A stretch of 64,000 nt of DNA from Alteromonas stellipolaris (GTDB lineage: Bacteria; Pseudomonadota; Gammaproteobacteria; Enterobacterales; Alteromonadaceae), in contig NZ_CP013926.1 in assembly GCF_001562115.1 (NCBI RefSeq), positions 2,418,001 to 2,482,000 on the forward strand. Direction: 5' to 3'. Under the pieces are notes generated by a model. It had not been told where the DNA came from. It searched no databases and worked only from the letters and a program-made list of their open reading frames with translations. Shown here one piece after another: positions 2,826-20,608 of this stretch (position 1 is its first letter; the number at the start of each line of letters is the position of its first letter). A program made the translations under genes and the position numbers.

Positions 2826-2839
2826 TGCATACGTATTCA
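2826..2839 (-). promoter_or_regulatory. Putative maltose-regulon operator, copy 1
   Basis: The sequence TGCATACGTATTCA (TGAATACGTATGCA on the minus strand) is a 14-bp palindrome with one mismatch, centred on CG, as in LacI-family operators. It lies 80 bp upstream of the GH13-MFS transcription unit. Exact copies occur at 15643 and 20595, and a one-base variant at 4977. The regulator is inferred and is not in this window. Confidence 0.7.
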
Positions 2840-2922
2840 CGAATCGGCATGTAAGAATCCATGCGAATTAACATAAATAGAAGGTTTTGATTCTGCAATC
2901 GAAGCAAAATTCACACAAATAG

Positions 2923-4950
2923 TTAAAATGCGAATACTCTTGTTTCTAATCCGTTTAATGAAAGTGTCGCTGTGTAATTCGAACCACTGAGATTAAATGT
3001 TATTCCCTTATGAGTAAGTAAAGGCTCAAGAGTGAGTTCAGTGGTATTTTTTTGCAGTGACGAAATAGGAATGGTTAACGTTATAGGGCCAGTAGATTCT
3101 GTACTAAAGTTAGCAATAACAACTATACCATGCTCATTTTTTTCTCTCATAAAAGCAAATTGCATTTCCGTGTATGCTGTGCCGTCTGCGGCGAGATTCA
3201 ATGCATGTAGGCTTTCATATTTTCCGGTTACAGCAGGATTAGTAGCAACAATACCCATAGTCTCTTTATAGAAATTGTGTAATGCTTTTTCTTCGCTTGA
3301 AGACTGGCCTGCGTCAAACTTGCCACCATTCATAAACCGCTGATGTGCGGGCACACCAATATAGTCAAAGATTGAAGTACGACTAGGGTCTCCAAACCCC
3401 GCTTCTTCACTACCGTCCTCACCTAAATCCTGACCAAAATACAAGAGGATTGGTGAAGCACTTATCAGTGCGCTAACGGCGAGCGCAGGTTTACCTTTTT
3501 CTGCACCTCCAGCAAATTCTGGACTAGCGATACGTTGTTCGTCGTGGTTCTCAAGAAAGTGCAGCATATGAGTCGAAATATCGCTAACTTCATCGTGCAC
3601 ACTTACCAACTCACTTACCTTACCCTCTCCTTTCATTATCGTTTTCAAGGTGTCATAAAAGCCCACTTTATCGTAGAGATAATCCATCTTACCTAGCTGA
3701 ATGTAGTCTCTGTATTTATCGGGTTGATAAACTTCCGCTAGCAAAAACGCATCAGGGTTTCTCTGTTTAATGGCACTGTTTAAAAATGACCAGAATGCTA
3801 CGGGCACCATTTCAGCCATGTCGAACCGAAAACCATCAACGCCTTTATCTAGCCAGTAGATGGCAATGTCTCTAAATTTGTACCAAGAGTCTGGTAATGA
3901 TTTGTCAGCCCAAAAAGCAGCATGCTCTTGCACAGACTTATCTCGATACGCTTCTGGTAACTCAGGAAAGTCATGGGTTCCGTCGGGTCTTACACCGTAA
4001 TTTATTTTAACGGTTTCGTACCAATCATTAATATCAGGCTGTGATGCTCGACTGCCATTGCCCGTCCATTTAGCCGGAAATTCATCAAACTTTCCGTCAA
4101 CCAATTGATGCTGATTTTTTTCAGTAGCTTTGCCGCCTAAAACGGTATCTGCAACGCCCTCTGGCAATACGAAAGGTGTATTGGGTATGTAATAGAAATT
4201 ATTGTCTCGAGCATACTCTTGCGATTTATCATCGTTAGCACCGAAGTTATCATGGCGTGGCGAAAAAGATTGATAACGGCGTGCAACATGATTAGGCACT
4301 ATATCGATAACCACTTTCATACCGTGCTGATGAGTGCGCTGGATAAGCGCTTCAAATTCATGTAATCGATTTGCAGGGTTGTCTGCTAAATCAGGATTAA
4401 CATTGTAATAATCTTTAACTGCATAAGGCGAACCTGCACGTCCTTTAATTACATCGGGATCATCGTCATCAATACCGTATTCTAAGTAGCTAGTGGCGAG
4501 GGCATGATGGGGTACACCGGTATACCAAATATGTGTAGTACCTAAGGCTTTTATGCTTTGAAGGGCTTGCGGTGTGAAATCACTAAATTTCCCCACACCA
4601 TTTTCTTCGATGGTGCCCCAAGGTTTATTAGTTGTATTGGTATTCCCGAACAATCGAGTAAAGACCTGATATACCACGGGCTTGCCAGAATTAGGGGGAA
4701 TTTGTGTTCGTGGGTGATTCGCGTTCTCATTTTCCATGAGATCGGCTCCTGACTGTGAGTAAGCGATGCATGATAAGAGGCCAAGTGATAAAGCCACTAC
4801 TGTCAGTTTCTTAACCGCCGAGCTTTTGTTTACGCTTTTTATAGGAGTGTGTGCCGCGTTTTCTGCTGCACATTTCACCGTGTGGAGGTGATTTGTCTTT
4901 TTGATATCTAACACTACAAGCATACCTTTGCATTGAATTGCCAATAGCAT
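2923..4950 (-). CDS. Alpha-amylase, GH13, probable lipoprotein
   Basis: A 675-residue (as written) starch-degrading enzyme. The GH13 barrel is complete: region I VVIDIVPNHVAR, nucleophile D377 (GFRFDMAEM), acid/base E406 (LLAEVYQ) and D470 (LENHDEQR), followed by an all-beta C-terminal domain ending ETRVFAF. A hydrophobic stretch VVALSLGLLSC near residues 51-61 ends in a lipobox-like LLSC, suggesting a lipoprotein. That leaves about 45 residues before the signal peptide, so the true start is probably downstream of the ATG at 4950, for example at the ATG or GTG near 4923-4914 after AAAGG; I cannot settle it. The operator at 4977-4990 is only 27 bp upstream of 4950, which also favours a later start. 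It is followed by the GH13-MFS unit at 2746. Confidence 0.88.
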   Translation of the reverse strand: MLLAIQCKGMLVVLDIKKTNHLHTVKCAAENAAHTPIKSVNKSSAVKKLTVVALSLGLLSCIAYSQSGADLMENENANHPRTQIPPNSGKPVVYQVFTRLFGNTNTTNKPWGTIEENGVGKFSDFTPQALQSIKALGTTHIWYTGVPHHALATSYLEYGIDDDDPDVIKGRAGSPYAVKDYYNVNPDLADNPANRLHEFEALIQRTHQHGMKVVIDIVPNHVARRYQSFSPRHDNFGANDDKSQEYARDNNFYYIPNTPFVLPEGVADTVLGGKATEKNQHQLVDGKFDEFPAKWTGNGSRASQPDINDWYETVKINYGVRPDGTHDFPELPEAYRDKSVQEHAAFWADKSLPDSWYKFRDIAIYWLDKGVDGFRFDMAEMVPVAFWSFLNSAIKQRNPDAFLLAEVYQPDKYRDYIQLGKMDYLYDKVGFYDTLKTIMKGEGKVSELVSVHDEVSDISTHMLHFLENHDEQRIASPEFAGGAEKGKPALAVSALISASPILLYFGQDLGEDGSEEAGFGDPSRTSIFDYIGVPAHQRFMNGGKFDAGQSSSEEKALHNFYKETMGIVATNPAVTGKYESLHALNLAADGTAYTEMQFAFMREKNEHGIVVIANFSTESTGPITLTIPISSLQKNTTELTLEPLLTHKGITFNLSGSNYTATLSLNGLETRVFAF

Positions 4951-4976
4951 ACTCGTTAAGGGAATGTTAAAACAAT

Positions 4977-4990
4977 TCCATACGTATTCA
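4977..4990 (-). promoter_or_regulatory. Putative maltose-regulon operator, copy 2 (variant)
   Basis: TCCATACGTATTCA differs by one base from the other three copies; the core ATACGTATTCA is intact. It is directly upstream of the GH13 alpha-amylase gene. Its nearness to the annotated start suggests that the promoter overlaps the site or that the gene starts further downstream. Confidence 0.6.
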
Positions 4991-5102: not shown

Positions 5103-6065
5103 CTATGCCGCTTTACTGGCTGTAAACTCTTCCTCTACTTTCATGCTGGCGCCAAACATATTTTCAGTTAAGCTGCCCGCCAGGTCATTTTTAATTCGTA
5201 ATAAAAAGCTACGCAGCGCCGGAGTTAATTCACTCTCAATAGATTTGGGCTTGATACGATACACCGCACGTAAGCCATTGTAGTCAATCGGATCGCCCAA
5301 ACGTTCAAAATTAAACCCGAACATTTTTAATCTGCGAGCCAATTTAGGTTCCATCAATACATAGGCATATTCCATTTCCTGTTCAACGCAAATACTCAGA
5401 GCGATGAAGTAGAGCGCCAAAGATAAATAAGGTATGTGTTCCAGTAGAACGCTTTCTGCTTTACTCACCTTTTGTTTACCAGAAGGTTTGAACGGCGCTT
5501 TAGCTTTAAGCTGTCTAACTCTAAACGATTTAGGAATGGCTAGACGAGAGATTTCGCAGATTGAAGTTCTACCCAATTGAGCGGGCACTAACGCTTTGTC
5601 TTCAATGGCGTGAATACATTTTTCTTCCAACGGCAGGGCTTGATTGCGAATAGCAGGCATAATGATACGAATCGTACCTGCACAATCTCCTGTCGGTAGA
5701 TGTTTGATGTAACAATTGACAGAATAGTCATCATATCTATCAATTTCTAATCCTGTAGAGCGCTCTTTTTCGAAGTTCATTTCTTCACAATAAACTTCGT
5801 GCCTTGTGCTGAAACATGTCTCTCGGTCTTCGTTATTTTGTGCGACCACAAGTGAGTAACGACTAAAGAAAAAACTTGATAGTTCATCCATCTGTTTTTT
5901 CTTTCTTTTGTTTCTCAATTTCTTCAAATTAGCAGAAATATGGCTATGAATTGTTTTTAATTTACTTAGCGAAGTAGCGACACGTTTTTTCAATTTTTGG
6001 TCCTCTATAGATTTAGCAGGCCCAGTTTGAAAAGCATGACAAAAGCTCACCTTGCGCTCACGCAC
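5103..6065 (-). CDS. PEP-CTERM/exosortase-associated-type acyltransferase homologue (GNAT-like)
   Basis: A 320-residue cytosolic protein resembling the PEP-CTERM/exosortase-associated acyltransferase family (relatives of N-acyl amino acid and acyl-homoserine lactone synthases). The region from about residue 65 contains CFSTRHEVYCEEMNFEK, DRYDDYS and CAGTIRIIMP, the usual start of that fold, and SICEISRLAIPKSFR matches its second conserved block. A very basic segment (residues 18-57, many K and R) precedes it. I used the GTG at 6065, which has GAGAG upstream; the ATG at 5891 (codon 59) would give a 262-aa protein closer to family length but lacks a good Shine-Dalgarno. No exosortase or PEP-CTERM protein is encoded nearby, so the substrate is unknown. 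Confidence 0.7.
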   Translation of the reverse strand: MRERKVSFCHAFQTGPAKSIEDQKLKKRVATSLSKLKTIHSHISANLKKLRNKRKKKQMDELSSFFFSRYSLVVAQNNEDRETCFSTRHEVYCEEMNFEKERSTGLEIDRYDDYSVNCYIKHLPTGDCAGTIRIIMPAIRNQALPLEEKCIHAIEDKALVPAQLGRTSICEISRLAIPKSFRVRQLKAKAPFKPSGKQKVSKAESVLLEHIPYLSLALYFIALSICVEQEMEYAYVLMEPKLARRLKMFGFNFERLGDPIDYNGLRAVYRIKPKSIESELTPALRSFLLRIKNDLAGSLTENMFGASMKVEEEFTASKAA

Positions 6066-6099
6066 AATTTCACTCTCGAATACAACGATTCAAACCGAT

Positions 6100-6615
6100 T
6101 TATAGTTTTGATTGATTATTATTATCCCGGCTCTCACGTATGAGGCTATTACCTGAGATATACTCTGATTTTGCTAAGCGATCGTAAAGTACCACGTTAG
6201 CGGTAGCAGCTAGATTCATGCACGAATAGGTAGGTATGTAGACAACATGGTCACACCACTCAAGCACGCTTTTATCTAAACTGCCATCTTCTGGTCCGAA
6301 AATGTACATTGCGTTTTCGGGATGTTTAAATTCTGGTAAAGGTAACGCGCCTTCTACTAGCTCTATGGCTACTACACTTGCATTCTCGGGCACGACCTCT
6401 TTTAAATCATCAACGCCGATAGTAGGGATCTTTTTATGGAAAGCCTTCGTATCAGCATTAAAGTTCTTCGCAATACGGTATCGGTATCCGGTGTAAAACA
6501 CGCTTGAAACACCGTAACAACCTGCTGCTCGTAAGATAGAGGCAACATTCACGGGATTTTTAGGGTTTACTAACCCAATGCTTACTGTTTGCTTTGATAG
6601 CGAAAGGGAACTCAC
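6100..6615 (-). CDS. TrmH/SpoU family RNA 2'-O-methyltransferase
   Basis: A 171-residue SPOUT-class enzyme, the size of a single knotted catalytic domain without an RNA-binding extension. The three SpoU motifs are present: NPKNPVNVASILRAA (motif 1, with the conserved Asn), YIFGPEDGSLD (motif 2) and YIPTYSCMNLAATANVVLYD (motif 3, SAM-binding knot). It methylates ribose 2'-OH in tRNA or rRNA; the position cannot be told from sequence alone, so no symbol is given. The start is GTG at 6615 with AGAGG four to five bases upstream. The gene stands between the acyltransferase and the patatin on the same strand, with short gaps but no obvious functional link. Confidence 0.85.
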   Translation of the reverse strand: MSSLSLSKQTVSIGLVNPKNPVNVASILRAAGCYGVSSVFYTGYRYRIAKNFNADTKAFHKKIPTIGVDDLKEVVPENASVVAIELVEGALPLPEFKHPENAMYIFGPEDGSLDKSVLEWCDHVVYIPTYSCMNLAATANVVLYDRLAKSEYISGNSLIRESRDNNNQSKL

Positions 6616-6749
6616 ACGACCTCTTCTTATTATTTATTATTTTGTTATTTTGTTGCGCAATCGTTTTTCAGCACTGCCATCTTATCTATTGCAGCTTTAC
6701 GCCATTCTAATTTATTAGTTACTTCGGTATTGAGCGTTATTCTTATACT

Positions 6750-7625
6750 TTAGTTTAGTTGCGCGACGGTTTTATTACTCTGTGCAGTCTGCAATTCTTT
6801 TTGCCAATTCGATATAGCACGTCTTGCCATCCGCCTTCCCTGCCCGTAGCCACGTAATAGTTTCTTTTTATCCATTGTTAAACGTTTAACGCAGAACGCC
6901 TCATCAGGCGCAATGACAGTAATTTTGCAATCAGACGGCGGATTTAAGAGAAAATTCAATGTTTCGTTATAAATATTTGATCTTTTCGTCATCTTATCTA
7001 GTAAGGCGGGTTGAGCGCCATACATTTTTTCTAAAAGCCACGCTGTTTTTACTGCCGGCTTCGTGAAGCCCTTAGGTTGAGATAGCACTACCGTTATATC
7101 ACGTGCCCCCATCTCATAAGCTTTTATTGCCGGTATAGCATCAGCCACTCCGCCGTCAACATAGCGGTTGCCATCTATTATGGGTTGTTCTCTAAACGCT
7201 GTTGGAATGGCACAGGATGCTACCATCAACGCATCAACATTTTCTTCCGTAGCTTGTATGTATTCACATTCACCCGACTCAACATTAGTGATCCCAACAT
7301 ACAGTGGCATTGCTGTTTTTTCACCTGGTGCAGGTATGCCCAACGACTTTTTAGAGTGATGCCATAACCAATGAACATCAGTCATATGCCCACCTTTAAT
7401 AAAACGTATTGGGCTGAAAAACTCTCGTTTAGTGGCATGCTGCGTGATAATGGTCTTACTAAGGCCTGGCATTCTAGCTACGTATGTTGAGAGGTTTGTT
7501 GCCCCAGCCGACACTCCTATCGCGAAATCAAACGGATAGTAATTTTCCTCCATAAACTTATCCAATACGCCAGCTGCAAATACGCCACGCATCGCCCCAC
7601 CTTCTACCACTAAAGCTGATTTCAT
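6750..7625 (-). CDS. Patatin-like phospholipase (YjjU type)
   Basis: A 291-residue serine lipid acyl hydrolase. The oxyanion glycine-rich loop GGAMRGVFAAG (residues 8-18), the nucleophile elbow GVSAG with S39 and the catalytic aspartate D157 in DGGVAD form the complete patatin Ser-Asp dyad. No signal peptide is visible, so it is probably cytosolic or membrane-associated. The start ATG at 7625 has GGAG nine bases upstream. The gene is separated from the pullulanase by 373 bp containing that gene's terminator, so it is transcribed on its own or with the SpoU gene downstream. The physiological substrate is unknown; the family includes bacterial phospholipases and esterases. Confidence 0.88.
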   Translation of the reverse strand: MKSALVVEGGAMRGVFAAGVLDKFMEENYYPFDFAIGVSAGATNLSTYVARMPGLSKTIITQHATKREFFSPIRFIKGGHMTDVHWLWHHSKKSLGIPAPGEKTAMPLYVGITNVESGECEYIQATEENVDALMVASCAIPTAFREQPIIDGNRYVDGGVADAIPAIKAYEMGARDITVVLSQPKGFTKPAVKTAWLLEKMYGAQPALLDKMTKRSNIYNETLNFLLNPPSDCKITVIAPDEAFCVKRLTMDKKKLLRGYGQGRRMARRAISNWQKELQTAQSNKTVAQLN

Positions 7626-7998: not shown

Positions 7999-8990
7999 TT
8001 ATTTTGCGCTCACGGTGAGTGTAGGCGACTCTCCATTAGGACCAGACACTTTAAATTCGTAAAGCCCAGCATCAGTGACGTCAATAACAAGATTGTTGTT
8101 GCTAAATGACAACACTTTTGGCTGACCCGGCGTTACTAGGTTAGATGCCGCATCGTTTGGGTTACCTAAATTAACAGTATTCCAATCTTCTGATGCCACC
8201 TTGAACTCCGCACTTCCTATGCTGAGTTCAATATCTACCGTGTACTCACCCTCACCTTGGTAGGTAAATAGGTCAGTAGTTCCCCACCCGTTCATACCAC
8301 CGCGAATGTACACTTCTGTATCACCGAAATAGGCTTCTTTATACACACCTATGGTGGGATTGTTTTCGTCATTTACATCAAAAACAAATACATAACGGTC
8401 AGCTTCTTCAATAGTCAAAAGCAGATTATCGTTTGTTCTTGCCAAAGCAGTCGTTTGACCTACGTTAACATTCTTATCTGCATCATCAGCACTCAATGCG
8501 CCAAAATTAACCGTATCCCAATCTTCAGAAGCGACTTTGAATTCATAACTGCCTGGGTCTATATCCATTGTCACTATATAGATACGCCCCCCTTGATACA
8601 CAAGTTCGTCATTAGTGCCCCAATCGTTCACTGCACCTCGAATAAACACAGGTGTGCCAACATAGGGCTCTTCGTTAACAATAGTGAGTACTGGGGACTC
8701 TGAATCCGAGGCGTTTATGGTAAACAGATACGTAGCACCAATAGCCGGAGTGAATGATAAATTATTATTAGTTCTAGCCAAGATTTTAGGCTCACTTTCT
8801 ACAAACGCAGCATCATCTCCGTCTGCGGCACCAAAATTAACCGTTTCCCAATCCTCTGAGGCAAACTTAAAGCCATAAGTGATTCCCGCTTCCAAGGCAA
8901 CAGCAACTTCATAAATGCCATCCCCTTTATAAATAAATGGATTATCAGTCGTCCAACCGTTCATATCGCCGCGAAGGTAAGGCGTAGTTT
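7999..8990 (-). repeat. Three tandem ~111-residue modules at the pullulanase C-terminus
   Basis: The conserved Trp codon of the RGxxNxW turn falls at 8953-8955, 8620-8622 and 8284-8286, so the units are 111 and 112 codons apart. Each unit contains Y.RG..N.W, an (F/Y)xxxx(D/E)G or QGG turn and (F)KxASEDWxTVN. DNA similarity is clear but not identical, so this is an old duplication. The CBM family is not assigned. Confidence 0.8.
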
Positions 8991-11900
8991 CACCATAAGG
9001 CACAACATCCGGGGCACCAGAAGTTGCGTAGGCCGACAAACCGTAACCTTGTGCGCCAGATTGCGGCTTCACAAATACGGCAATGGTCAGTGCTGGAACC
9101 GTGAATATACCATTCCCGTCTTCAGCTTCGTTAAACGTAGCGCCTCGCACAGTTTCATCACTTGATTTCATTTGCGTCGCATGTAATGAAAACCCGGTTG
9201 CGGTATTGATGCTTATAGATTGCGTTTCGTACCCCGTATTCACAAGTACAACGATGGCATCATTTTGCATATCGAGGTCGGTACGTAGCGTTTCAGCATC
9301 AGCCGTAACACCATCATCAATACTCATGGCTATTAAGCCTTTTTGCTGGTTTGAACCGATATTATGAAAGCCAATACGGTTAATGATGTCCTCTGCGGTA
9401 GTTAAACGAAATAACGGACTTTCCATACGAATGGCAAGCAACTCGTTAAATACATCCGACGCGAGCAATATATCAGTCATCGTTGCTGCTCGTTCTGGGC
9501 TATAAATAAATTCACCCATTTCTTCCCAGCGAACTTCATTGTCTTGTGCTAACGGTAAACCCACATTCCAGTTGTTGGTTTCATAGGTAAAATCAACGAA
9601 GTTGAACCAGTCACCTGCATCATAGGTGTTTCTGTCCATAGACTTAGAGCGCAGTAAATCGCCCCCCATTTGCAAGAATGGAATACCTTGAGACACCAGT
9701 GGAATACCGATAGCGACATTCTGTGCACGTACGCGCTCACTCAACGAAATATCCATTGGCAAGGTGTAGTTCAGTTGATCCCATAAGGTTTCATTATCAT
9801 GTTTAGACACATAGTTAATAATGTCGGCAGGATCGAGTGCGTAACCACCTAGGTTACTGGTATTGCTGGCCACACCAGCCGAGGTTTCAAGCACATAGTC
9901 TTGTAGGGTGCCTACCATGCTCATCTTCACTTTATCTTGATCGCTCAATAGCGCGTCAGAATCAGGTGAAAAGATATTCCCTTGGCGAATAGCTTCACGA
10001 ATTCTATCGTTGTACGTGCCTATTTGCGTACCGGCCATATTTAGCTGGTTCGCTTGCTCATAACCTCTGTCAATGCGCGTCCAGCCTTCGCCGTAGAAGT
10101 AATTGTCTTCATCTAATGCTTGTACGCTGTTGCGCAATTGCAACATGGTTTCTTTAGAAGCTTGGCTCATAATGTCGAAACGAAAAGCGTCGTATTTGTA
10201 ATGCTCGGTCCACATAAGTAGTGAATCTTGCATCAATTTTTCCATCATGACGTTGCGCGGTTCAGTGTCGTCACAGCAGGTTTCGCGAACAATATCACCC
10301 GTGTCTGTTTCATATCGATGGAAATAGCCAGGGACTACTTTGTCCAGTACAGATTTAGCAAACACGCCAGAGGCATTGGTATGATTAAATACCACATCTA
10401 AAGCAACTCGAAGGCCCATTTCATGCAGCGCTTGAATCATGGCCCGCATTTCAACTATACGTTCTACCCCCTCGGCGCTTGACGCATAGCTACCTTCAGG
10501 AGCGTTAAAATGATGTGGATCATAACCCCAATTAAAACCATCAATGGCACGCATATCACTTGTAAGCTGTTGAGCTTTCGCTGCTTCAGCTAGTGGGTCG
10601 TAGCTGTTGTATACATCAATAAGTTGTGTGGCACTGTTTTCTTCCTCACAAACTGCAGCTTCGGTATTTAGACGACACAAGTCCGCAACCGTATCAAATA
10701 AACCAACCGTTTTAGTCGGGTCCTCATCAATAGTGGCAATATCGTTCGCTGGCAGTACATGAAAGTAATTTAGCCCCGCTTCAACCAGTTTTTGTAGGTG
10801 TAAAACAGGTGCCGTGTTTTGCTCAGTAAATGCCATGTACTTGCCACGATTTGCTTCGCTTGTAGACATATCGCGAATACTGAAGTCTCGTACATGACCT
10901 TCATAAATAACGGCATCCTCAGGGTTTTCCAACGTAGGAATGACCTGCGTATCCCACCCCTCTGGTTTTAAATCGTCATCAGCTAAGTTAACAAAGCGAG
11001 AAAAGCGGCCATTGGTGCTAAGGCTTACCGAATAAGGGTCAGTAACTTCAAGTTTTTCTACCGCCCCCGTTTGCGGATGAAAAACCGTCACTTCATAGCG
11101 GTAAAGCTGTCTATCTAACGACATGTCTCCTTCAAATTGCCAAATACCTGTAACGGTGTCGCGTGTCATGCTATAGCGATTAGCGAGGGTTTTGTTATCG
11201 TTGAAGGTCAGCAAATCTACATTTTGAGCCGTGGGTGCCCATACCGCCACCGCAATACCCGTGTCAGAATATACGGCCCCTAAACTTGCTTCATTTGCAT
11301 CTTCATCACCCGCCGTATAAATAGCATCAATAACCTTTGCGTTTTGTAAGCCTGTTGCTGCTATTAAAACGCCATCACTGTCATACCCACCTACTACGGC
11401 TTGAGTGGTTAAGACCGTTTTTGCATCCTCTAGGCTCCAGTCACCTTCCCACGCCTGAAGACCCGCTAGGTTTTCTGCTTTAGCAGTTTGGCTATCGTCT
11501 AACGTGGCAGGCATTAACGCTACTGACGTGCCGTTAATTCCACTTTCCAATGAACTTTCTAAGTCAGCATTCGGTGAATAGTGAAGCTTCACGGTAGATA
11601 CGGTATCAGCCACATCCCACAATATCGTATTCGCATCTAACCAATGTGCGCCAAACCCCACTATATCCACTGGCTGTGGCCCAAGTGACATAATTGGGTA
11701 TTCAAATAAAGTGGGCTCTCCCGATAAGGTAAAGTTCATTCGCACGTAAGTATCATCATCTTGAACTAGCGAAGCTTGGAAGTCAGAACCACCCAGCTCT
11801 TTGCCTGCATCGTCAGTGCCTAAGTGAATGATAAAATTGTGGCAATCATCAAAATCATTTTTTAAATCTAAAACCCAATACGCGCCATAATTAGGATCGA

Positions 11901-12348
11901 TCCCCGTATGTTGACGTCCGTTGGCCCAATCAGTATCTGAATCGGCATATGCGTCACATTCATCGTTGTTCCAGGTATGCAAACGCCAGCCTTCGTACAC
12001 GGGATCGTTTGTGGAATTATCAGCATCAACTGCCGCGCGGTTGTAGTATAAAACCGCTTGATTATCTGCAGGGAAAAATACCGGTAGTGGCAAACTTGGA
12101 TCGGCGCCAACCACACACGCATCATTAGTTTCATTTGGTACCGTAGGTGCATCACACTGAATAGGCGGGGGTGCGACACACGCGCTGCCGTCTGCATTAG
12201 GTACGTTTGGTACATTACAAGTCAGTAAATTGTTAGAGCCAGATTCAACACCTGAGCCCCCGCAACCTACTACAAGAAGCGCCGTTAGAATAAGTGCTGC
12301 AATACGCCATACATTCAGCATTGGCGTTGATAAGGGTTTCGTTAACAT
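7999..12348 (-). CDS. Pullulanase-type alpha-1,6-glucosidase, lipoprotein, with three C-terminal repeat modules
   Basis: A 1449-residue debranching enzyme cleaving alpha-1,6 bonds of starch or pullulan at the cell surface. Order of domains: signal ending VVGC (lipobox), proline-rich CNVP/CDAPTVP repeats, a PUD/CBM41-like module (VLYYNR...GWRLHTWN), a CBM48 module (YSDTGIAVAVWAPTA), then the GH13 barrel with D725 (FRFDIMSQ), E754 (YGEGWT) and D851 (KHDNET). Three tandem modules of about 111 residues follow, each with an RGxxNxWG-like turn and an ASEDWxTVN motif, probably starch-binding. I chose the ATG at 12348 because GGAG lies six bases upstream and it gives a normal lipoprotein signal. The frame extends to an ATG at 12438 that overlaps the receptor stop (ATGA), a possible alternative start by coupling. 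It forms one unit with the upstream TonB-dependent receptor. Confidence 0.92.
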   Translation of the reverse strand: MLTKPLSTPMLNVWRIAALILTALLVVGCGGSGVESGSNNLLTCNVPNVPNADGSACVAPPPIQCDAPTVPNETNDACVVGADPSLPLPVFFPADNQAVLYYNRAAVDADNSTNDPVYEGWRLHTWNNDECDAYADSDTDWANGRQHTGIDPNYGAYWVLDLKNDFDDCHNFIIHLGTDDAGKELGGSDFQASLVQDDDTYVRMNFTLSGEPTLFEYPIMSLGPQPVDIVGFGAHWLDANTILWDVADTVSTVKLHYSPNADLESSLESGINGTSVALMPATLDDSQTAKAENLAGLQAWEGDWSLEDAKTVLTTQAVVGGYDSDGVLIAATGLQNAKVIDAIYTAGDEDANEASLGAVYSDTGIAVAVWAPTAQNVDLLTFNDNKTLANRYSMTRDTVTGIWQFEGDMSLDRQLYRYEVTVFHPQTGAVEKLEVTDPYSVSLSTNGRFSRFVNLADDDLKPEGWDTQVIPTLENPEDAVIYEGHVRDFSIRDMSTSEANRGKYMAFTEQNTAPVLHLQKLVEAGLNYFHVLPANDIATIDEDPTKTVGLFDTVADLCRLNTEAAVCEEENSATQLIDVYNSYDPLAEAAKAQQLTSDMRAIDGFNWGYDPHHFNAPEGSYASSAEGVERIVEMRAMIQALHEMGLRVALDVVFNHTNASGVFAKSVLDKVVPGYFHRYETDTGDIVRETCCDDTEPRNVMMEKLMQDSLLMWTEHYKYDAFRFDIMSQASKETMLQLRNSVQALDEDNYFYGEGWTRIDRGYEQANQLNMAGTQIGTYNDRIREAIRQGNIFSPDSDALLSDQDKVKMSMVGTLQDYVLETSAGVASNTSNLGGYALDPADIINYVSKHDNETLWDQLNYTLPMDISLSERVRAQNVAIGIPLVSQGIPFLQMGGDLLRSKSMDRNTYDAGDWFNFVDFTYETNNWNVGLPLAQDNEVRWEEMGEFIYSPERAATMTDILLASDVFNELLAIRMESPLFRLTTAEDIINRIGFHNIGSNQQKGLIAMSIDDGVTADAETLRTDLDMQNDAIVVLVNTGYETQSISINTATGFSLHATQMKSSDETVRGATFNEAEDGNGIFTVPALTIAVFVKPQSGAQGYGLSAYATSGAPDVVPYGETTPYLRGDMNGWTTDNPFIYKGDGIYEVAVALEAGITYGFKFASEDWETVNFGAADGDDAAFVESEPKILARTNNNLSFTPAIGATYLFTINASDSESPVLTIVNEEPYVGTPVFIRGAVNDWGTNDELVYQGGRIYIVTMDIDPGSYEFKVASEDWDTVNFGALSADDADKNVNVGQTTALARTNDNLLLTIEEADRYVFVFDVNDENNPTIGVYKEAYFGDTEVYIRGGMNGWGTTDLFTYQGEGEYTVDIELSIGSAEFKVASEDWNTVNLGNPNDAASNLVTPGQPKVLSFSNNNLVIDVTDAGLYEFKVSGPNGESPTLTVSAK

Positions 12349-12354
12349 GGATAA

Positions 12355-12358
12355 CTCC
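12355..12358 (-). promoter_or_regulatory. Shine-Dalgarno deciding the pullulanase start
   Basis: GGAG on the minus strand, six bases before the ATG at 12348. No comparable site precedes the in-frame ATG codons at 12375 or 12438. Confidence 0.65.
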
Positions 12359-12434
12359 AAATTTTTCTTTTTCATAAACGCAGTATTGGCATTGATTGCC
12401 TTAGGATTCAGCTTTTGGGAGAGAGGTAAAATAC

Positions 12435-15400
12435 TCATAATTGGTATGTCATCCCTAAGTAATACTGCGTACCGAAAAACTGAATGGTGCCGGTTTGTTC
12501 AGAAGAGGTGAAATAGCTTTTGGTAGGTTCGTCGGTAACGTTGTTAACTTGAAACAAAACGCTCCAATTATCGTTAATTTCATAGGATGCTTGGTAATCA
12601 ACAACCAGTTCAGAATCAAAATTAACGGTTTGATCGTTCACCGCCACTTGTTCAGAAACGAAGAAATCTCGATAACGCCCAGATAAGCGAGTTTCAAACC
12701 CTTCGTATTCCCAAAATAGCGTTACCGTGGCGACATTTTCGGATAAGCCAGGCAAGCTATCCGAATACACCGAACTACTCAGCGTACGTTGAATTTCACT
12801 TTCCGTGTAAGAGTAACTAGCCGTAACCCCTAAGCCAGACCAGAAATCCGGCAACTTGCTATAAATTTCAGTGTAGGCAATTTCAACACCTCGAATATAG
12901 CCGCCTTCAGCGTTATTTACTGCCGTACTATAGCTCCCATTTTCTGTAGGAACCGTAACAAAGATAGGGTTGCCGTCGGCATCCCGAGACAACTCAGCCT
13001 CTTGACCCACAAACTCAGGCTCAAGATAGACAGGTACCTGTACCGAATCTGGAACCACAATACCGTTGCCACTGAAGTCATAAGGTTCTATGTTAATTTC
13101 TTCAATGAAAGACTCTATGTCTTTGTAAAACGCTGCCAGTATCAATGCCCCTTCGGTATCCTCAAAATAGTATTCCCATGAAATATCATATTGGGTGGCA
13201 TAAAAAGGCTCTAGGTAAGGGCTATTTGTTGCGTTCCCGTTTACCTTGGCGGTAGGTTGCGACAACGTAACCTCCCCCGAGTCTCTATCCTGCACAGCAG
13301 TCACCGTTTCAACGGTGGTAGAAGCATTTGCTGCAAACCTATTGATAGGCGCACGGCCCATCACTTTTGCTGCAGCGACTCTTAGTTGGGTATTATCTGT
13401 AAGCGCAAAATTTAGATTAATAGACGGCAACACATCGTCGTATTCGTGAGTAAGCGTTGTGAAGCGATAAAAATTGTTAATTAAGCCGGCATCGTCGGTA
13501 ATATTTTGTGCGCCCGCGGTGGGATCACTCACCTCTATTGTGACACCCGTTTCTGGGTCGGTAATTAACGACGTAGCACGCTGGTATGTAGTAGAGCTTT
13601 GTTTGGTTTTTACATACCGGACACCCACGTTACCCGTTACTGGCATTCCCGCTATCTCAGTGCTTAGACCCGCCATCACATAAGCAGAGTTTACCGTTTC
13701 AAACACCTGACCACTTTCTTGCATAGTCCAAGAGGTAGACGGCCCTGTACCTGGACCATTAATCACGCCAGCAGCCCCTGGCCCCCAAGTTTGAACCGGT
13801 TGAGGATAGCCGCTTGGAAACCATGCGTTAAGCGCACTGTTTAAGTCTACCGACAAATAGCTTGGGAAATAGCTAAAATCGCCAGCCCAATCGACTTGCT
13901 CCACCATGTCATTTGTTAACCTCAGCGGTGGCTCACTTACTGAAAATGCACTGTCATTGCCGTATTCAAATACTGAACGATCGTTGCTGTACTCTCTATC
14001 AGAATAGCGATAGCCAAACTCCAAGCCAGTCACGATAGGCATGTCGATAAAGTATTGGAAATCGACCTTGTAAGCATCAAGCTCATCTTTGTTTACAAAC
14101 GGATAAATACCGTACTTACTGACCATCACCCTATCAATATCGGAAAACGCATCTGCTTGATTAAAGGCTAAATCAGGAAGATTATTACCATTCAACAAAT
14201 ACGAAATTTGAACGTTCTCATCAAACACAGGGCTGATGGCGTTGGCATCTTCACTGACTAACGACCATAGCAAGCCATTACGGAAATCACTTTTCGCGGT
14301 GGAACGAGACACATCAAATTGCACCGACAAGTCAGCACTAATTTCCCAATCTGCGTTAATACCAAAGTTTTCAACGCTATCGAAATCCTGGTTGTCGTCG
14401 TTAACTAGTTCAACCCGAGTAAAGCTGTTGTCTGTTCGAGAAAAAGTGCCACCAATCACACTATTATTCACAATGACAGGGTTCGTGATGCCTGCCGTTA
14501 TACCGCCTAATTTTACTCGATACCCACGGGCAAATTCTTCTGAATCGAATTTAGAAATAAATGCATCGGCTTTTAAGGTGAAATTTTCCAGTGGTGCCCA
14601 TTCTATGGCTGCAACGTACCCATCACGAGTTTGCTCACCACCCTTGTGTTGCATTTCAAAGCCTTCTGAAATGAGCTCACACTCTGGGCAGTCTGTGCCT
14701 GCTCTGTCGATGTCACCTTCAATACCATCTACATCAACAGCCCCGTTATATGCTAAGCCCACAAATTGGGTAGATACACTAGGTTGGAATAAACGTGCAT
14801 AACCAAGAGATAAACCTACGGTGTCGTCCATGAACTTCCCTTGATAGGAAAAACTCAATCGATGGCCGTATTCACTGGCATCAGATATCTCATTGGCTCG
14901 ATCGTTATACATACCCCGCATATTGGCACTAAACTTATGCTGCTCTTCCATGGCTAATGGGCTTGCTGTTTTCAGTTCTACCGTTCCCGCAATCCCCCCT
15001 TCAATGAGCGATGCTTTAGGCGATTTGTATACACTGGCTTCGGTGATCAATTCTGATGGGTACTGGTCGAACTCAATGGCTCGGCTTCCACTCGTAGACA
15101 CTTGCTCACGACCATTGAGTGTAGAGAACACAAAGTCACCGGCTAAACCACGAATGTTAATCTCAGCCGCTTGTCCCCCTGTTCGAACAGCTGATATACC
15201 CGGCAATCGGGTAAGGGCATCTGCCATAGATACATCAGGCAAACCGCCCAAATCATCCGCTGAAATTTGTTCTGACACTGTGTCAGAAAAACGTTTCTGG
15301 TTGAGTGATTGAATGAGGCTAGTACTAAACCCCCTCACCTCTATACGTTCGAGCGTGTCCTCAGATATGTCATCAGCAGCTGGTTGACCGCGCGATTGCT

Positions 15401-15530
15401 CAATTGAAGTTTCGTTACCGACTTCATCAATGGTGTCTTCCGACGTTTGCTGTGCGTAAATTGGCAGGGAAAATGCCAACCCACTACTGACTAACGCCAC
15501 CATGATAGGCTTAAGTTTGAATGTTCTCAT
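12435..15530 (-). CDS. TonB-dependent receptor, maltodextrin/starch type
   Basis: A 1031-residue outer-membrane receptor. A signal peptide (KPIMVALVSSGLAFSLPIYA) precedes the plug domain, seen in TVSEQISADDLGGLPDVSMADALTRLPGI and the IRGLAGDF block, then a long beta-barrel that ends in the typical aromatic-rich strand YYLGMTYQL. One loop carries the pair CPEC (near residue 275), which could form a disulfide. The stop overlaps an ATG (ATGA) in frame with the pullulanase, and an operator copy lies 113 bp upstream. By linkage it probably imports branched or long maltodextrins produced by the lipoprotein pullulanase; this is inference. Energy would come from a TonB system such as the one at 63321-63968. 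Confidence 0.9.
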   Translation of the reverse strand: MRTFKLKPIMVALVSSGLAFSLPIYAQQTSEDTIDEVGNETSIEQSRGQPAADDISEDTLERIEVRGFSTSLIQSLNQKRFSDTVSEQISADDLGGLPDVSMADALTRLPGISAVRTGGQAAEINIRGLAGDFVFSTLNGREQVSTSGSRAIEFDQYPSELITEASVYKSPKASLIEGGIAGTVELKTASPLAMEEQHKFSANMRGMYNDRANEISDASEYGHRLSFSYQGKFMDDTVGLSLGYARLFQPSVSTQFVGLAYNGAVDVDGIEGDIDRAGTDCPECELISEGFEMQHKGGEQTRDGYVAAIEWAPLENFTLKADAFISKFDSEEFARGYRVKLGGITAGITNPVIVNNSVIGGTFSRTDNSFTRVELVNDDNQDFDSVENFGINADWEISADLSVQFDVSRSTAKSDFRNGLLWSLVSEDANAISPVFDENVQISYLLNGNNLPDLAFNQADAFSDIDRVMVSKYGIYPFVNKDELDAYKVDFQYFIDMPIVTGLEFGYRYSDREYSNDRSVFEYGNDSAFSVSEPPLRLTNDMVEQVDWAGDFSYFPSYLSVDLNSALNAWFPSGYPQPVQTWGPGAAGVINGPGTGPSTSWTMQESGQVFETVNSAYVMAGLSTEIAGMPVTGNVGVRYVKTKQSSTTYQRATSLITDPETGVTIEVSDPTAGAQNITDDAGLINNFYRFTTLTHEYDDVLPSINLNFALTDNTQLRVAAAKVMGRAPINRFAANASTTVETVTAVQDRDSGEVTLSQPTAKVNGNATNSPYLEPFYATQYDISWEYYFEDTEGALILAAFYKDIESFIEEINIEPYDFSGNGIVVPDSVQVPVYLEPEFVGQEAELSRDADGNPIFVTVPTENGSYSTAVNNAEGGYIRGVEIAYTEIYSKLPDFWSGLGVTASYSYTESEIQRTLSSSVYSDSLPGLSENVATVTLFWEYEGFETRLSGRYRDFFVSEQVAVNDQTVNFDSELVVDYQASYEINDNWSVLFQVNNVTDEPTKSYFTSSEQTGTIQFFGTQYYLGMTYQL

Positions 15531-15642: not shown

Positions 15643-15656
15643 TGCATACGTATTCA
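15643..15656 (-). promoter_or_regulatory. Putative maltose-regulon operator, copy 3
   Basis: TGCATACGTATTCA, identical to the copies at 2826 and 20595, 113 bp upstream of the TonB-dependent receptor that precedes the pullulanase gene. Confidence 0.7.
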
Positions 15657-15928: not shown

Positions 15929-17515
15929 TTAAAAGCTCACAGACGTTTTATTTGCACTATCAATCATAGATTGAATGTACGCATCATGTGTTGGTAACGA
16001 TGCTATTGGTTCCCGTTTAATCTTATATAAGGACGCTAACATAGCTTGCGTTTTTTCATCAGAAAAGCTATTCGTTAACCCATGATAATCTTCAGGGACT
16101 AGCCCTTGCCCATACATAACTTGTAGCCAAGAACTTTCTAAAAATAAGTCACTCTGCTCGCGCACTAAATTGCCATTTTGTTTAAACAGCGCCATTTTGT
16201 GCACCAACGAGTCTGGTAATGTTAAGTGGCGCATATCTCGCCAGAAATCACTGTCTTCGCGTTCATTTAAACAATAATGCAATACTAGGAAATCTCGTAT
16301 TTGCTCAAATTCTACTTTTGATTGTGCGTTGTATTCGGCAACAGCACTATCTGAAATACCTTGGTGTGGAAATAGTTTAATTAACCTTACGATGGCTGAT
16401 TGAATCAGGTGAATACTTGTAGATTCCAAAGGCTCTAAGAATCCACTAGAGAGGCCTACCGCAACCACATTTTTATACCACTGCTGTCTACGACGACCGG
16501 TAGTAAATTTAATGAGTTTAGGATCGCCTAATGGTTTGGTATCTAAGTTAGCCATTAGCGTATCGTGGGCTTGGTTATCACTAATATAACGTGAACTATA
16601 AACGTGACCATTGCCATTACGATGTTGCAATGGAATACGCCACTGCCAGCCCGCATCGTGGGCGATAGAACGGGTAAAAGGTGCAGTATTTTCGTGGCGT
16701 TCAGAAGGCACTGCGATAGCCGAATCGCAAGGCAACAAATGAGACCAATCATCATAACCGGCCCCCAGGGTTTCGTTAATCAACAACCCTCGAAAACCAG
16801 TGCAGTCGATAAACAAGTCGCCATCAATGGCGTGGCCATTTTCGAGATGCAATGCTTTTACATTGCCACTGAGTTTGTGCCTTGATACATGACTGATTTT
16901 ACCTTCAACCCTTCTAACCCCCATTCCTTCACTGAGTTTACGGAGATATTGTGCATAGAGTGAGGCGTCAAAGTGGTAAGCAAAAGGAAGCTCTAAAACC
17001 GGATCTTTCGCATTAATACGTGCAAATTTACCTGCCTCTGCCGCTAAATAATTAAGATCATAATCCCATAAATCGTGTTTCAAACCCTGCTGACGCGCTT
17101 TTAGCCAAAAGTGATGAAAGTGACAAAAGGCCATGCTTTTACCTGGCGCGCCGAACGTGTGGTAGTAGTGCTGCCCTTGCTGCTTCCAGTTTTCAAATCG
17201 AATTGCTAGCTTAATGGTAGCTTTGGTATCACGAAGAAAGGTTGCCTCGTCAATACCTAGCACTTGGTTAACTAAGCGGATGGGCGGAATGGTGGCCTCG
17301 CCTACTCCAACTGTGCCGATAGCTTCAGATTCTACGAGGGTAATATTCACAGCTTCGCCAATGACTTTTTTCAGTAACGCGGCCGCTAGCCACCCTGCCG
17401 TTCCGCCCCCAGCAACAACAACACGTTTCACTGGCGTATGCTTAGCTTCTTGGTGATCCCTTGTCTGTTGATCCGTTGCTTGTTGATTCGCCTCTTTTTG
17501 ATTTGCCACTGCCAT
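15929..17515 (-). CDS. Tryptophan-halogenase-like flavoprotein of the starch locus
   Basis: A 528-residue FAD-dependent protein of the tryptophan halogenase family. Visible motifs: dinucleotide fold GGGTAGW, second flavin motif GVGEATIP, the halogenase signature WQWRIP near residue 291, K102 (ATIKLAIRFENW) aligning with the catalytic Lys79 of PrnA, and E364 (FLEPLES) aligning with Glu346. The PrnA halide-site T-G becomes T-S here (T366-S367). The ATG at 17515 has AAGGG six bases upstream; the in-frame TTG two codons earlier directly abuts it. It follows a TonB-dependent receptor on the same strand. Such genes are common beside TonB receptors for carbohydrates, but the substrate and even halogenation are unproven. 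Confidence 0.85.
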   Translation of the reverse strand: MAVANQKEANQQATDQQTRDHQEAKHTPVKRVVVAGGGTAGWLAAALLKKVIGEAVNITLVESEAIGTVGVGEATIPPIRLVNQVLGIDEATFLRDTKATIKLAIRFENWKQQGQHYYHTFGAPGKSMAFCHFHHFWLKARQQGLKHDLWDYDLNYLAAEAGKFARINAKDPVLELPFAYHFDASLYAQYLRKLSEGMGVRRVEGKISHVSRHKLSGNVKALHLENGHAIDGDLFIDCTGFRGLLINETLGAGYDDWSHLLPCDSAIAVPSERHENTAPFTRSIAHDAGWQWRIPLQHRNGNGHVYSSRYISDNQAHDTLMANLDTKPLGDPKLIKFTTGRRRQQWYKNVVAVGLSSGFLEPLESTSIHLIQSAIVRLIKLFPHQGISDSAVAEYNAQSKVEFEQIRDFLVLHYCLNEREDSDFWRDMRHLTLPDSLVHKMALFKQNGNLVREQSDLFLESSWLQVMYGQGLVPEDYHGLTNSFSDEKTQAMLASLYKIKREPIASLPTHDAYIQSMIDSANKTSVSF

Positions 17516-17521
17516 ATTCAA

Positions 17522-17526: not shown

Positions 17527-17578
17527 ACTACTTACTTCACCACACTGTAGATGGTTTGCCTGTCTTTTTACAATAAAA

Positions 17579-17637
17579 AACCACCTTTTGCTTCGCCGCC
17601 GGAATTCATATTCGAGCGCTGAAACAACAAGGTGGTT
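17579..17637 (-). terminator. Possible terminator after the first TonB-dependent receptor gene
   Basis: AACCACCTT and AAGGTGGTT form a 9-bp stem around a 41-base insert, followed on the minus strand by TTTTTT. The long loop makes it weaker than the others, but the position, 35 bp past the receptor stop, fits. Read-through to the halogenase-like gene remains likely. Confidence 0.5.
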
Positions 17638-17671
17638 AGTATCTATCCTAATGTTGGCTTTCGCTCAACCA

Positions 17672-20476
17672 TTAGAAGGTATAGTTAAAGCCTAACAAGT
17701 AGTTAGTACCGTAAGATTGATATTGCGTGATTTGACGAGAATCCGCCTGTGACGCTTGAATATCATCTTCATCAGTTAAGTTTTGCGCTTGGAAAGTAAC
17801 ACGGAGGCCTTCCAGAGACTCAATACCAGACTCGCTAAAGTCGTAACCGATTTGTGCGTCAACCAATGTACCGCCTTGCTTAGTAGCATCTACTAATGCC
17901 AAGCTAGTACCGCGTTCTTCTGTTAGGTAGTCATCACGCTTCGTTGCCGCAACACGGAATTCGAAACCATTGCTTTCATAGAAGAATGTCATGCTGTATG
18001 ACTCTTCAGACAAACCTGGAATACGGGTTTCTGTTTGCGTAGGTGCTGCATCTACTTCACCTTCCATGAAGGTAGCACTTGCGAACAAGCCAAAGCCTTC
18101 AAGTGAGTCATGAAGCAATTCACCTGGTAACGAACCTTGAAGTTCATAACCGCGCACATATCCTTCAAAACCATCAAGTACACTGCCTACTGAACCTAAG
18201 AAAGTTGCTGGCGTTTGACCTTCTGAACCTTGGTGTAAATCAGGAATGTACACATCAGAGAAATCAGTCAGTACACTCGTATCACGATGCCAGTTTTTAA
18301 TATCCTTATAGAAGAATGAAGCCGCTACATAACCCGTATCAGAGAAGTAGTTTTCATAAGCGATATCCAACTGGTTAGCTTCAAGAGGCTTAAGTTCAGG
18401 GTTACCTGAGCTACCACTCCAAGGCCCATTTTCAGGATCGGTACTGGTAATTTGGTTATCGTTGAATGCAAAAGACGCCTGCGTATTTGGACGCATATCG
18501 TCCATACGTGGTCTTGAAATCACTTTACCCAAAGCGAAACGTACAAACTGACCTTCCGCTACTTCTGCAGAAAGGTTAAGTGTTGGTAGTACATCTGTGT
18601 AATCAGCACCACCAGAAACCGGTACCGCTACTGTCATTCCATCAGCATCTGACGTAGTTGAGAAACCGGTAGATTGTTGGTCAGCATTAACCACTTGCAC
18701 ACCCACGTTACCGCGAATATAAACATCACCCACTTCCATTTCTAAATCAAATTTAGTGTAGAAAGTCAGTAATTCTTCATCAACCGTGTAGCTATCTCCT
18801 AAACGATCGTTTTGTACAAGCTTGGCGTCTGTCGCTGTGTAATAACCACTTTGGAACAGTCCAAGTGAATCATACGCAAGAATACCATCTATACCGATGA
18901 AATCTAAAGGTACTACACCTAGTACATCTGGAATAGCCGCATCACCAGGATAGCTAGGCGCAGTTAAATATGCACCGTTGTTTTCTTTGGTTTTGCTGCG
19001 GTCTGAGTAGATAACGCCCGCAGACATGCCAGTCACTACGCCCCATTCAACGTACCCTTTTGCATCAAAGCGGTAAGTATCTAGGTCTTCTTCATAGTTT
19101 GGTTGGTTAACAAAACCATCTTGTGCGTCTGCGCCAATAATAGGTGCGCCCCACGCTTGTGGGCCTGCAAGACGAATTAAGCTTTCGTCGGTAAGGTCAA
19201 CCGGTGCAATGCTTGGGTGATCAGAATATACCGCGCCAGTCGACGTCATTTCCCAACTACGAGCAGTAATAGGACGACCATCAATACCCGCACGGCCTAC
19301 ACCTGAATAACTCTCTACATCGATAATGTCTTTTTCAACTTTACCGGTAGAGTAATCAAACTCAAGCGTCCAGTTATCATTTAAAATGTATTCAGCGTTA
19401 ACGCCCACTGTTGTTAAGTCAGCTTCTTGAGTACGAGCGTCGTTACGAATAACTGAATAGAAGCCATCGTAGTAGCCTGATGTCACTAAACCGTTTTCAA
19501 CACCAGTAATAGTATATTCGCCAGTACCCCATTCAGCACCGCCTTCTTCAAGACCACGACGAACGTCATCTTCAACAAAATCGATGTAAAGCGCATCTAC
19601 TTGAACATTTAATTTATCATTAGGCGCCCATTCAACCACAGCTGCGATAGAGTCACGCTCTAACATAGCTGAACGTGCAAATGAATCGTGTCCACCTAGA
19701 ATCGTAGTTCCTTCTGCAACATCTACACCGTCAACGGCATTATCTGCGTTAGCACCCGCGTAACCCCAACCACGGAAGTGTTGTTCTTGACGAGGTGATT
19801 CCATGCTAGCAACAGTTAATGCTAAACCAATGGTATCGTCGGCAAATTGATCAACGTAGTTTACTGAAATACGATGCCCATTATTGTCGAAGTCTGGGTT
19901 AGGAGAATCTTCAGCATTCTTTTCATACGAGCCATTGATAGCAAAAGTACTTTTTGCTGTTAGTGGGCTAATCGTTTGAAGATCAATTGAACCACCAATG
20001 TTTTGGGTAGTCATGCCAGCTTCTGCTGTTTTATAAACAACAATGCTAGAAATGATTTCTGTAGGGTAAAGATCGAATTCAACGCCGCGGTTGTCACCCA
20101 TACCTAATAATTCACGACCGTTAAGTGATGTACCTACGTAGTTTTCGTTGAAACCACGTACTGAAATACCACTTGTACGACCGTTTCTACGCTCACCGGC
20201 TAGACCAGGCAAACGTGAAATAGATTCTGCAATACTTGTATCCGGTAATTTACCGATGTCTTCTGCGGATAACGCTTCAACAATAGATGTATTGTCCATC
20301 TTAATTGCTTGAGCGCGTTGTAAGCTGCCACGTATACCGCTAACTTGAATAACTTCAACGTTAGCTTCATCAGCTGCTTCAGAATTTGTTTCTTGTGCAA
20401 ATGTAGGCGAACAACCAAAAGCTACGCCACCAGTGATCAGCGCAACCTTGATGAGATTTGGTTTAAATTGTTTCAT
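17672..20476 (-). CDS. TonB-dependent receptor, maltodextrin type
   Basis: A 934-residue outer-membrane receptor. It starts MKQFKPNLIKVALITGG and has a signal peptide ending near SPTFA. The plug contains IEALSAEDIGKLPDTSIAESISRLPG and VRGFNENYVGTSLNGRELL; the barrel ends YLLGFNYTF with the terminal Phe used by the BAM complex. The ATG at 20476 was chosen over the upstream in-frame codon because the 22 extra residues are polar and would hide the signal peptide; GGGACA lies about eight bases before it. An operator copy lies 119 bp upstream, and the halogenase-like gene follows. Uptake of maltodextrins is inferred from the locus and the shared operator. Confidence 0.9.
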   Translation of the reverse strand: MKQFKPNLIKVALITGGVAFGCSPTFAQETNSEAADEANVEVIQVSGIRGSLQRAQAIKMDNTSIVEALSAEDIGKLPDTSIAESISRLPGLAGERRNGRTSGISVRGFNENYVGTSLNGRELLGMGDNRGVEFDLYPTEIISSIVVYKTAEAGMTTQNIGGSIDLQTISPLTAKSTFAINGSYEKNAEDSPNPDFDNNGHRISVNYVDQFADDTIGLALTVASMESPRQEQHFRGWGYAGANADNAVDGVDVAEGTTILGGHDSFARSAMLERDSIAAVVEWAPNDKLNVQVDALYIDFVEDDVRRGLEEGGAEWGTGEYTITGVENGLVTSGYYDGFYSVIRNDARTQEADLTTVGVNAEYILNDNWTLEFDYSTGKVEKDIIDVESYSGVGRAGIDGRPITARSWEMTSTGAVYSDHPSIAPVDLTDESLIRLAGPQAWGAPIIGADAQDGFVNQPNYEEDLDTYRFDAKGYVEWGVVTGMSAGVIYSDRSKTKENNGAYLTAPSYPGDAAIPDVLGVVPLDFIGIDGILAYDSLGLFQSGYYTATDAKLVQNDRLGDSYTVDEELLTFYTKFDLEMEVGDVYIRGNVGVQVVNADQQSTGFSTTSDADGMTVAVPVSGGADYTDVLPTLNLSAEVAEGQFVRFALGKVISRPRMDDMRPNTQASFAFNDNQITSTDPENGPWSGSSGNPELKPLEANQLDIAYENYFSDTGYVAASFFYKDIKNWHRDTSVLTDFSDVYIPDLHQGSEGQTPATFLGSVGSVLDGFEGYVRGYELQGSLPGELLHDSLEGFGLFASATFMEGEVDAAPTQTETRIPGLSEESYSMTFFYESNGFEFRVAATKRDDYLTEERGTSLALVDATKQGGTLVDAQIGYDFSESGIESLEGLRVTFQAQNLTDEDDIQASQADSRQITQYQSYGTNYLLGFNYTF

Positions 20477-20594
20477 AAAACAGGTGTCCCATTCAGTTAT
20501 ATTTGTTGTCTTTTTGTTATTTTTATGACAATCGAATGACAATGTATCCAGTCGCTGACAATCCTATAGAGCACATGGGCTTTGCACAATTGCT

Positions 20595-20608
20595 TGCATA
20601 CGTATTCA
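20595..20608 (-). promoter_or_regulatory. Putative maltose-regulon operator, copy 4
   Basis: TGCATACGTATTCA, identical to copies 1 and 3, upstream of the TonB-dependent receptor that leads the receptor/halogenase-like unit. Confidence 0.7.

Follow-up and report, generated by a model that had tools for sequence, protein, structure and literature searches.

The closest described counterpart of the system treated here is the MalR regulon of Shewanella, for which the relevant part of PMC2996990 gives a LacI-family regulator with a TonB receptor, the transporter MalT, GH13 and GH97 as neighbours. A maltose locus whose receptor is induced by maltose is reported for Xanthomonas campestris and Caulobacter (PMC1790865), and the MalR of Enterococcus faecium is, according to the title of PMC3737153, a LacI-family activator of maltodextrin metabolism, resembling the role favoured below; neither of these two was compared by sequence. 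Our subject is a 14-bp near-palindromic element in the window, i.e., the whole analysed stretch of 64,000 nucleotides (C1:2418001-2482000 of the 4.9-Mb Alteromonas stellipolaris genome), where it precedes starch-utilization genes, together with the LacI-family gene malR, encoded shortly beyond the left edge of the window. Enterococcus faecium is a Gram-positive bacterium. CcpA and Cra, also of the LacI family, act as activators at some genes by binding upstream of the promoter; unlike MalR, they are global regulators with other ligands and motifs.

Judged from sequence, the Alteromonas system is the MalR regulon known from Shewanella, extended in Alteromonas; the likeness, as far as PMC2996990 was drawn upon, rests on the regulator and on gene classes, with the published motif logo outside the comparison. 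Of 148 genomes sampled from the order, 27 encode a MalR orthologue at 57% identity or above (57-81% in the 26 genomes other than our own), and all four of the neighbour classes named above recur across the order. All genomes of family f6 that carry the sites belong to one genus, g12, which we take to be Shewanella because the MalR of one of its members, G146, matches named Shewanella proteins at 73-97%. In the f6 loci, the receptor and GH13 genes are divergently transcribed. Our genome has receptors and a GH13-MalT unit behind its sites and differs from the Shewanella regulon in lacking GH97 there: none of the exact sites in the A. stellipolaris genome has a GH97 gene behind it. Also unlike Shewanella, Alteromonas has a receptor-pullulanase pair, a receptor followed by a halogenase, two GH13 units, an unlinked alpha-amylase gene and probably a phosphorylase gene in the regulon.

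A pattern scan with the consensus TGMATACGTATKCA found three exact copies in the window, reading TGCATACGTATTCA, and one copy with a single mismatch, TCCATACGTATTCA, which are the four that the first-pass annotation had listed:

2826..2839, unstranded: putative MalR operator A (TGCATACGTATTCA), before the genes for a cyclomaltodextrinase-like GH13, a MalT-like transporter and a GH13
4977..4990, unstranded: putative MalR operator B (TCCATACGTATTCA, one mismatch), before the second GH13 gene
15643..15656, unstranded: putative MalR operator C, before TonB receptor 1 and pullulanase
20595..20608, unstranded: putative MalR operator D, before TonB receptor 2

These four sites are most likely operators of MalR and the core of a starch/maltodextrin regulon, which would include the unlinked alpha-amylase gene and probably also the maltodextrin phosphorylase gene. 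MalR itself very probably binds the 14-mer, given the co-occurrence of the two, their proximity, the conservation of the recognition helix and the CG-centred form of the site. All four copies precede minus-strand genes of the starch locus, as had been claimed, with distances to the longest reading frame of 80 bp (site 2826, GH13), 27 bp (4977, GH13), 113 bp (15643, TonB receptor) and 53 bp (20595, TonB receptor). For the genes behind 4977 and 20595, the predicted -10 boxes and the signal-peptide-like starts make it probable that translation begins further downstream than the longest frame does.

The 14-mer is a near-palindrome, TGCATAC-GTATTCA, with 6 of 7 base pairs matching around a central CG; its perfect palindromic form occurs in G052 and G158. 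Operators of the LacI family are described as even palindromes with a central CG and a whole motif of 16-22 nt (PMC4052901, as far as it covers them), and the 14-mer is likewise even and CG-centred, with a conserved core of 14 nt against the published 16-22 nt. Under a mononucleotide model, the window should contain 0.0014 exact copies and the whole genome 0.11; the observed numbers are 3 and 4, respectively. When up to three mismatches were allowed, the window was mildly rich in matches (20 against 11.6 expected, a number reached by 3 of 100 shuffles).

Scanning the whole genome with the consensus leads back to starch genes. The fourth exact copy, C1:4055614, is about 1.6 Mb away from the window. 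It precedes the gene of a secreted alpha-amylase by 93 bp, so that all four exact copies precede genes of the starch locus or an amylase gene. Six copies carry one mismatch: operator B, a site approximately 100-115 bp before the maltodextrin/glycogen phosphorylase gene, and four places (2224284, 3291212, 4031464 and 4264297) that we set aside, as all of them fall within longest reading frames; the last one is only 13 bp from the first codon of its frame and might be intergenic. At up to two mismatches, 60 matches in the genome faced 52 for the reversed-pattern control. Since these counts are so close, only matches within about one mismatch carry signal, and the relaxed sites were dropped as evidence, with the phosphorylase site as the exception.

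A LacI-family gene had been expected beside the left end of the window, and malR was indeed located there (C1:2414336-2415385), beginning 3.7 kb and ending 2.6 kb left of the edge. Its product of 349 residues has a LacI helix-turn-helix domain (PF00356, 59.8 bits) and a periplasmic-binding-protein-like domain (PF13377, 120 bits), the domain composition of the family, of which the genome encodes 12 members. MalR is 96-98% identical to the proteins of Alteromonas lipotrueae and two other Alteromonas strains. We further compared 38 named loci around malR, coming from Alteromonas, Salinimonas, Paraglaciecola, Opacimonas and Agaribacter and including some metagenome-assembled genomes. The recognition helix AGVSQSTVSR is kept in all 38 of them and in 24 of the 27 order-level orthologues, with QP in the other 3. 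A second MalR-like gene, 48% identical, was found beside a TonB-receptor gene in G059 (C1:2276833-2277858, L245), and no site with up to two mismatches occurs within the surrounding 20 kb.

The exact 14-mer occurs in the fetched flank to the right of malR in 37 of the 38 named loci, the remaining one being a contig of 5 kb. Operator B was found in 18 of them, in its exact form in 14. Across the order sample, the exact 14-mer appears 97 times in 30 genomes and the reversed control not once. Regulator and site are closely associated: 25 genomes have both, 2 only malR, 5 only the site and 116 neither (Fisher p = 3e-21, uncorrected for relatedness). The two genomes with malR that lack the exact form carry TGAATACGTATTCA or TGAATACGAATGCA before malT. 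A genus sample of 40 Alteromonas genomes gave the same picture, with malR and the site in 39 (153 sites; reversed control 0) and neither in one. Receptor 1 is preceded by an exact site in 29 of 30 loci (our own included), and the single miss, L276, begins near a contig end. The unlinked amylase gene is present in 4 of the 40 Alteromonas genomes, ours among them, each time behind an exact site. The phosphorylase site, in three one-mismatch forms, was detected in 24 of the 30 loci examined (our own included; 39 genomes have the gene), and the six misses comprise a contig edge (L224, G161), genome G121, which is without malR, and four loci of genomes with malR.

What stands next to these sites is largely of one kind. 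In other genomes, 88 of 93 places adjoin alpha-glucan genes or related TonB-receptor genes (85 by script and 3 by translated search), a rate that stands without a baseline from random intergenic places. The three additions by translated search are the GC-rich L161, L162 and L166, missed by the reading-frame caller, with L166 being a weak match of 28% identity. We also accepted as adjoining two sites where a GH13-like gene comes only after an acyltransferase gene, and one site flanked by a sodium symporter gene and a GH13-like gene; receptors were counted by homology to the two of the window, which does not imply their substrates. With our own four places included, 90 of 91 qualify in genomes with MalR against 2 of 6 in genomes without it. 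Four of the five non-adjoining places (L145, L152, L153, L165 and L205) belong to genomes without malR. The target classes over the order are TonB receptors, MalT-like transporters, GH13, GH97, GH31, pullulanase and amylase. In two genomes of family f16 (L172, L179), an acyltransferase-3 family gene and then a GH13-like gene lie behind an exact operator. Four of the eight operator pairs less than 300 bp apart are spaced by 29-33 bp, or approximately three helical turns (L146, L147, L156 and L180), and the second copy in such pairs could support cooperative binding.

The position of the sites relative to promoters bears on the sign of regulation. Sites were aligned on the operator in gene direction without gaps, with letter shuffles as controls. 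In this alignment, a TTG starts 5 bp after the operator (the +5 offset), and a TA--AT-like element follows 17-18 bp after that hexamer, which places the operator centre about 47.5 bp upstream of the predicted transcription start. The TTG is found at this offset in 43 of the 78 sites in the common orientation, where the maximum at any position in 300 shuffles was 9; after removal of flanks at least 60% alike, it persists in 26 of 58, and no other offset has more than 4. Promoter scores at +5 average 4.90, compared with a maximum of 3.54 in 200 shuffles. Among sites with a single qualifying neighbour, one orientation prevails by 56:9 (p = 2e-9). At site A, the first operator beyond malR, 37 named loci present 36 different flanks, yet the TTG stands at +5 in 36 of these loci, while over 37 loci the start codon of the first long frame lies at 26 different distances from the operator, between 56 and 337 bp. 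The second half of its -35 box is off-consensus (G or T, then T), and ACA is matched at no position in 27 of 37. By family, the TTG is at +5 in 18 of 20 sites of f6 (14 of 14 before receptors), 5 of 5 of f15, 2 of 2 of f13, 5 of 12 of f16 and, in our own genome, at operators A, C and D (3 of 4). The predicted promoter boxes in the window are:

2815..2820, minus strand: -35 box TTGGTT, 5 bp downstream of operator A
2792-2797, minus strand: -10 box TAGTAT of the promoter at operator A
4946-4951: -10 box TATGCT at operator B, about 3-4 bp closer than at A
15632-15637 and 15608-15613: -35 box TTGCTC and -10 box TACTAT at operator C
20584-20589 and 20561-20566: -35 box TTGTGC and -10 box TAGGAT at operator D

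A standard promoter scan returned 18 promoter-like sites against 39.2 in shuffles and did not list these promoters, since their -35 boxes are too poor for it; this outcome agrees with weak promoters and is not independent support.

Such a geometry makes it fairly probable that MalR is an activator, because an activator, unlike a repressor, requires a constant short gap to a weak -35 box and a preferred orientation. MalR would bind the operator, presumably together with maltose or a maltodextrin; in its preferred orientation, it would then sit about 47.5 bp upstream of the predicted transcription start, directly beside the weak -35 box, and from there it would recruit RNA polymerase. With more hesitation, we lean towards a stricter version, in which MalR of Alteromonadaceae and Shewanella is a position-specific LacI-family activator: a conserved asymmetric operator, TGAATACGTATGCA when read towards the gene, would be followed after exactly 5 bp by a conserved -35 box of off-consensus sequence (e.g., TTGGT or TTGCT), the starch uptake genes would stay silent until MalR contacts the polymerase, and the asymmetry would set the orientation of this contact. 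Fitness data from Shewanella point in the same direction, as far as they are given in PMC5443562: in Shewanella loihica, malR and malT have a cofitness of 0.94 (rank 1), similar patterns are seen in two other species, and the authors conclude that MalR is probably an activator. The parts of PMC5343134 and PMC3223726 available to us added nothing on the sign of MalR.

Several observations weigh against this interpretation. No site with up to three mismatches precedes malR itself in up to 400 bp upstream in the 38 loci, and thus the autoregulation that is usual for local regulators, albeit not defining for them, was not seen. The one Alteromonas genome without malR is also without receptor 1, so that loss of the regulator and loss of the locus are inseparable there. 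The phosphorylase site is absent from L234, L235, L238 and L239 despite the presence of malR and of the upstream region. Nor is the spacing universal: 35 of the 78 oriented sites have no TTG at +5, the signal is weak in the other genomes of our own family, f1 (10 of 29), and in f4 and f14 (0 of 3 each), operator B is 3-4 bp closer, and the 29 sites in the other orientation, including our own amylase and phosphorylase sites, display no common spacing. In Shewanella, the malT site is located more than 300 bp upstream of the transcription start and not at -47.5, according to the portion of PMC5443562 that deals with it.

One alternative is a classical LacI-type repressor, the kind that the first-pass annotation had supposed. 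Without maltodextrin, MalR would then sit on the operator, cover the edge of the -35 box and keep polymerase off, and the sugar would release it. LacI-family regulators are mostly repressors. RegPrecise also annotates the Shewanella MalR as one, as reported in PMC5443562. Furthermore, with a gap of 5 bp between operator and -35 box at many sites, occlusion is possible, and a protein at -47.5 could equally block polymerase. Yet a repressor has no need of the constant 5-bp gap, the preferred orientation or the weak -35 box, and the gap is kept at site A in all but one locus although the flanks have diverged; the positive correlation between malR and malT fitness patterns (as given in PMC5443562) does not fit it either. 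Overall, the expected LacI-type regulator is encoded left of the edge, but its action as a repressor seems doubtful and, in our opinion, unlikely in view of spacing, orientation, the weak -35 box and the Shewanella fitness data.

A different objection concerns the shared spacing, which might reflect the copying of one ancestral operator-promoter module before different genes rather than functional constraint. The receptors form one homologous group, and their promoters could share descent; receptor promoters make up 14 of the 26 dissimilar flanks that show this spacing. Nevertheless, flanks less than 60% identical keep the spacing in five gene classes, and those of site A have drifted at most other positions while the spacing was kept, and we therefore find copying improbable. 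It is more improbable still that another transcription factor, e.g., one of the 11 other LacI-family proteins, binds the sites with malR as a mere syntenic neighbour. In favour of this are 5 of the 148 genomes, in which no malR orthologue accompanies the site; in two of these (G112 and G140; L152 and L153), the exact 14-mer is flanked by a major facilitator superfamily (MFS) gene and by another LacI-family gene (25% identity to MalR). Against it, malR and the site co-occur over the order and in nearly all named loci, and every other LacI-family gene of our genome is more than 250 kb away from the exact sites. Another of the five genomes, G058, has its sites next to receptor and glucokinase genes on short contigs (7-10 kb), so that its malR may be absent only from the assembly. 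The helix of the L152 protein, AGVSQSAVSR, the one read of these two, has the QS residues in common with MalR, which suggests that these residues help to set the operator sequence.

The data would turn a bare repeat into a defined regulatory system common to Alteromonas, Paraglaciecola, Shewanella and relatives. All of these are common marine glucan users. The operator-promoter geometry would also offer an activation mechanism for the conflict over the sign of the Shewanella MalR, between repressor annotation and fitness data, that is visible in the accessible part of PMC5443562. If this is true, models of induction by relief of repression have the wrong sign for a whole bacterial group. In the open-licence literature searched, figures and supplements being outside its scope, we found no occurrence of the 14-mer in this reading direction, no constant operator-promoter spacing and no experiment on the sign of the Alteromonas MalR.

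The genes of the locus and other features are as follows:

C1:2415523-2417253: GH13, left of the window; with the transporter and the first window gene, it makes up the unit behind operator A
C1:2417253-2418743: MalT-like MFS (GPH-like sugar) transporter, after the GH13 gene at 782..2746 and partly beyond the left edge
782..2746, minus strand: GH13 with cyclomaltodextrinase N and C domains, behind operator A
2923..4950, minus strand: GH13 alpha-amylase-family enzyme, behind operator B
7999..12438, minus strand: pullulanase, its start overlapping the end of receptor 1
12435..15530, minus strand: TonB-dependent receptor 1, behind operator C
15929..17521, minus strand: flavin-dependent (tryptophan-type) halogenase, behind receptor 2, with no operator in the gap between them
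17575..17637, minus strand: terminator-like hairpin and T run, between receptor 2 and halogenase
17672..20542, minus strand: TonB-dependent receptor 2 (TIGR01782), behind operator D

Pullulanase and receptor 1 would form one transcription unit. Positions 5103-7625 hold a GNAT/FeeM-like gene, a SpoU methylase gene and a patatin gene. None of the three has an operator of its own, in agreement with the first-pass annotation: the sole match with up to three mismatches in this interval, at 5354, is intragenic and has three. The same annotation took them for an insertion, which is contradicted by the relatives. At least one relative of these genes stands beside the second GH13 gene in all 18 named loci that have operator B, namely 17 of Alteromonas and that of Salinimonas profundi, among the 38 examined; all three are present in 8 loci, and in several others the flank ends before or within the third gene. 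They are long-standing neighbours of the second GH13 gene and not an insertion peculiar to this genome.

Finally, we would like to comment on the halogenase, whose promoter was said to have no copy of the element and to be controlled through the receptor unit. Receptor 2 and halogenase are neighbours in 24 of the 30 halogenase loci examined in the 40 Alteromonas genomes, and in all 24 the gap is free of operators, in line with the first part of that claim. The second part is doubtful, as a terminator-like hairpin before a T run occupies the gap in all 24 loci (by a permissive search without shuffle control), and control via the receptor unit would therefore need read-through. The best hairpin in our own locus has -29.3 kcal/mol; the standard terminator scan, limited to loops of 3-8, did not list the gap hairpin. 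A regulatory link between halogenase and regulon stays plausible because in G090, from another genus of the family (L139), malT and a halogenase-family gene (34% identity) share an operator, which is 63 bp away from the latter gene.

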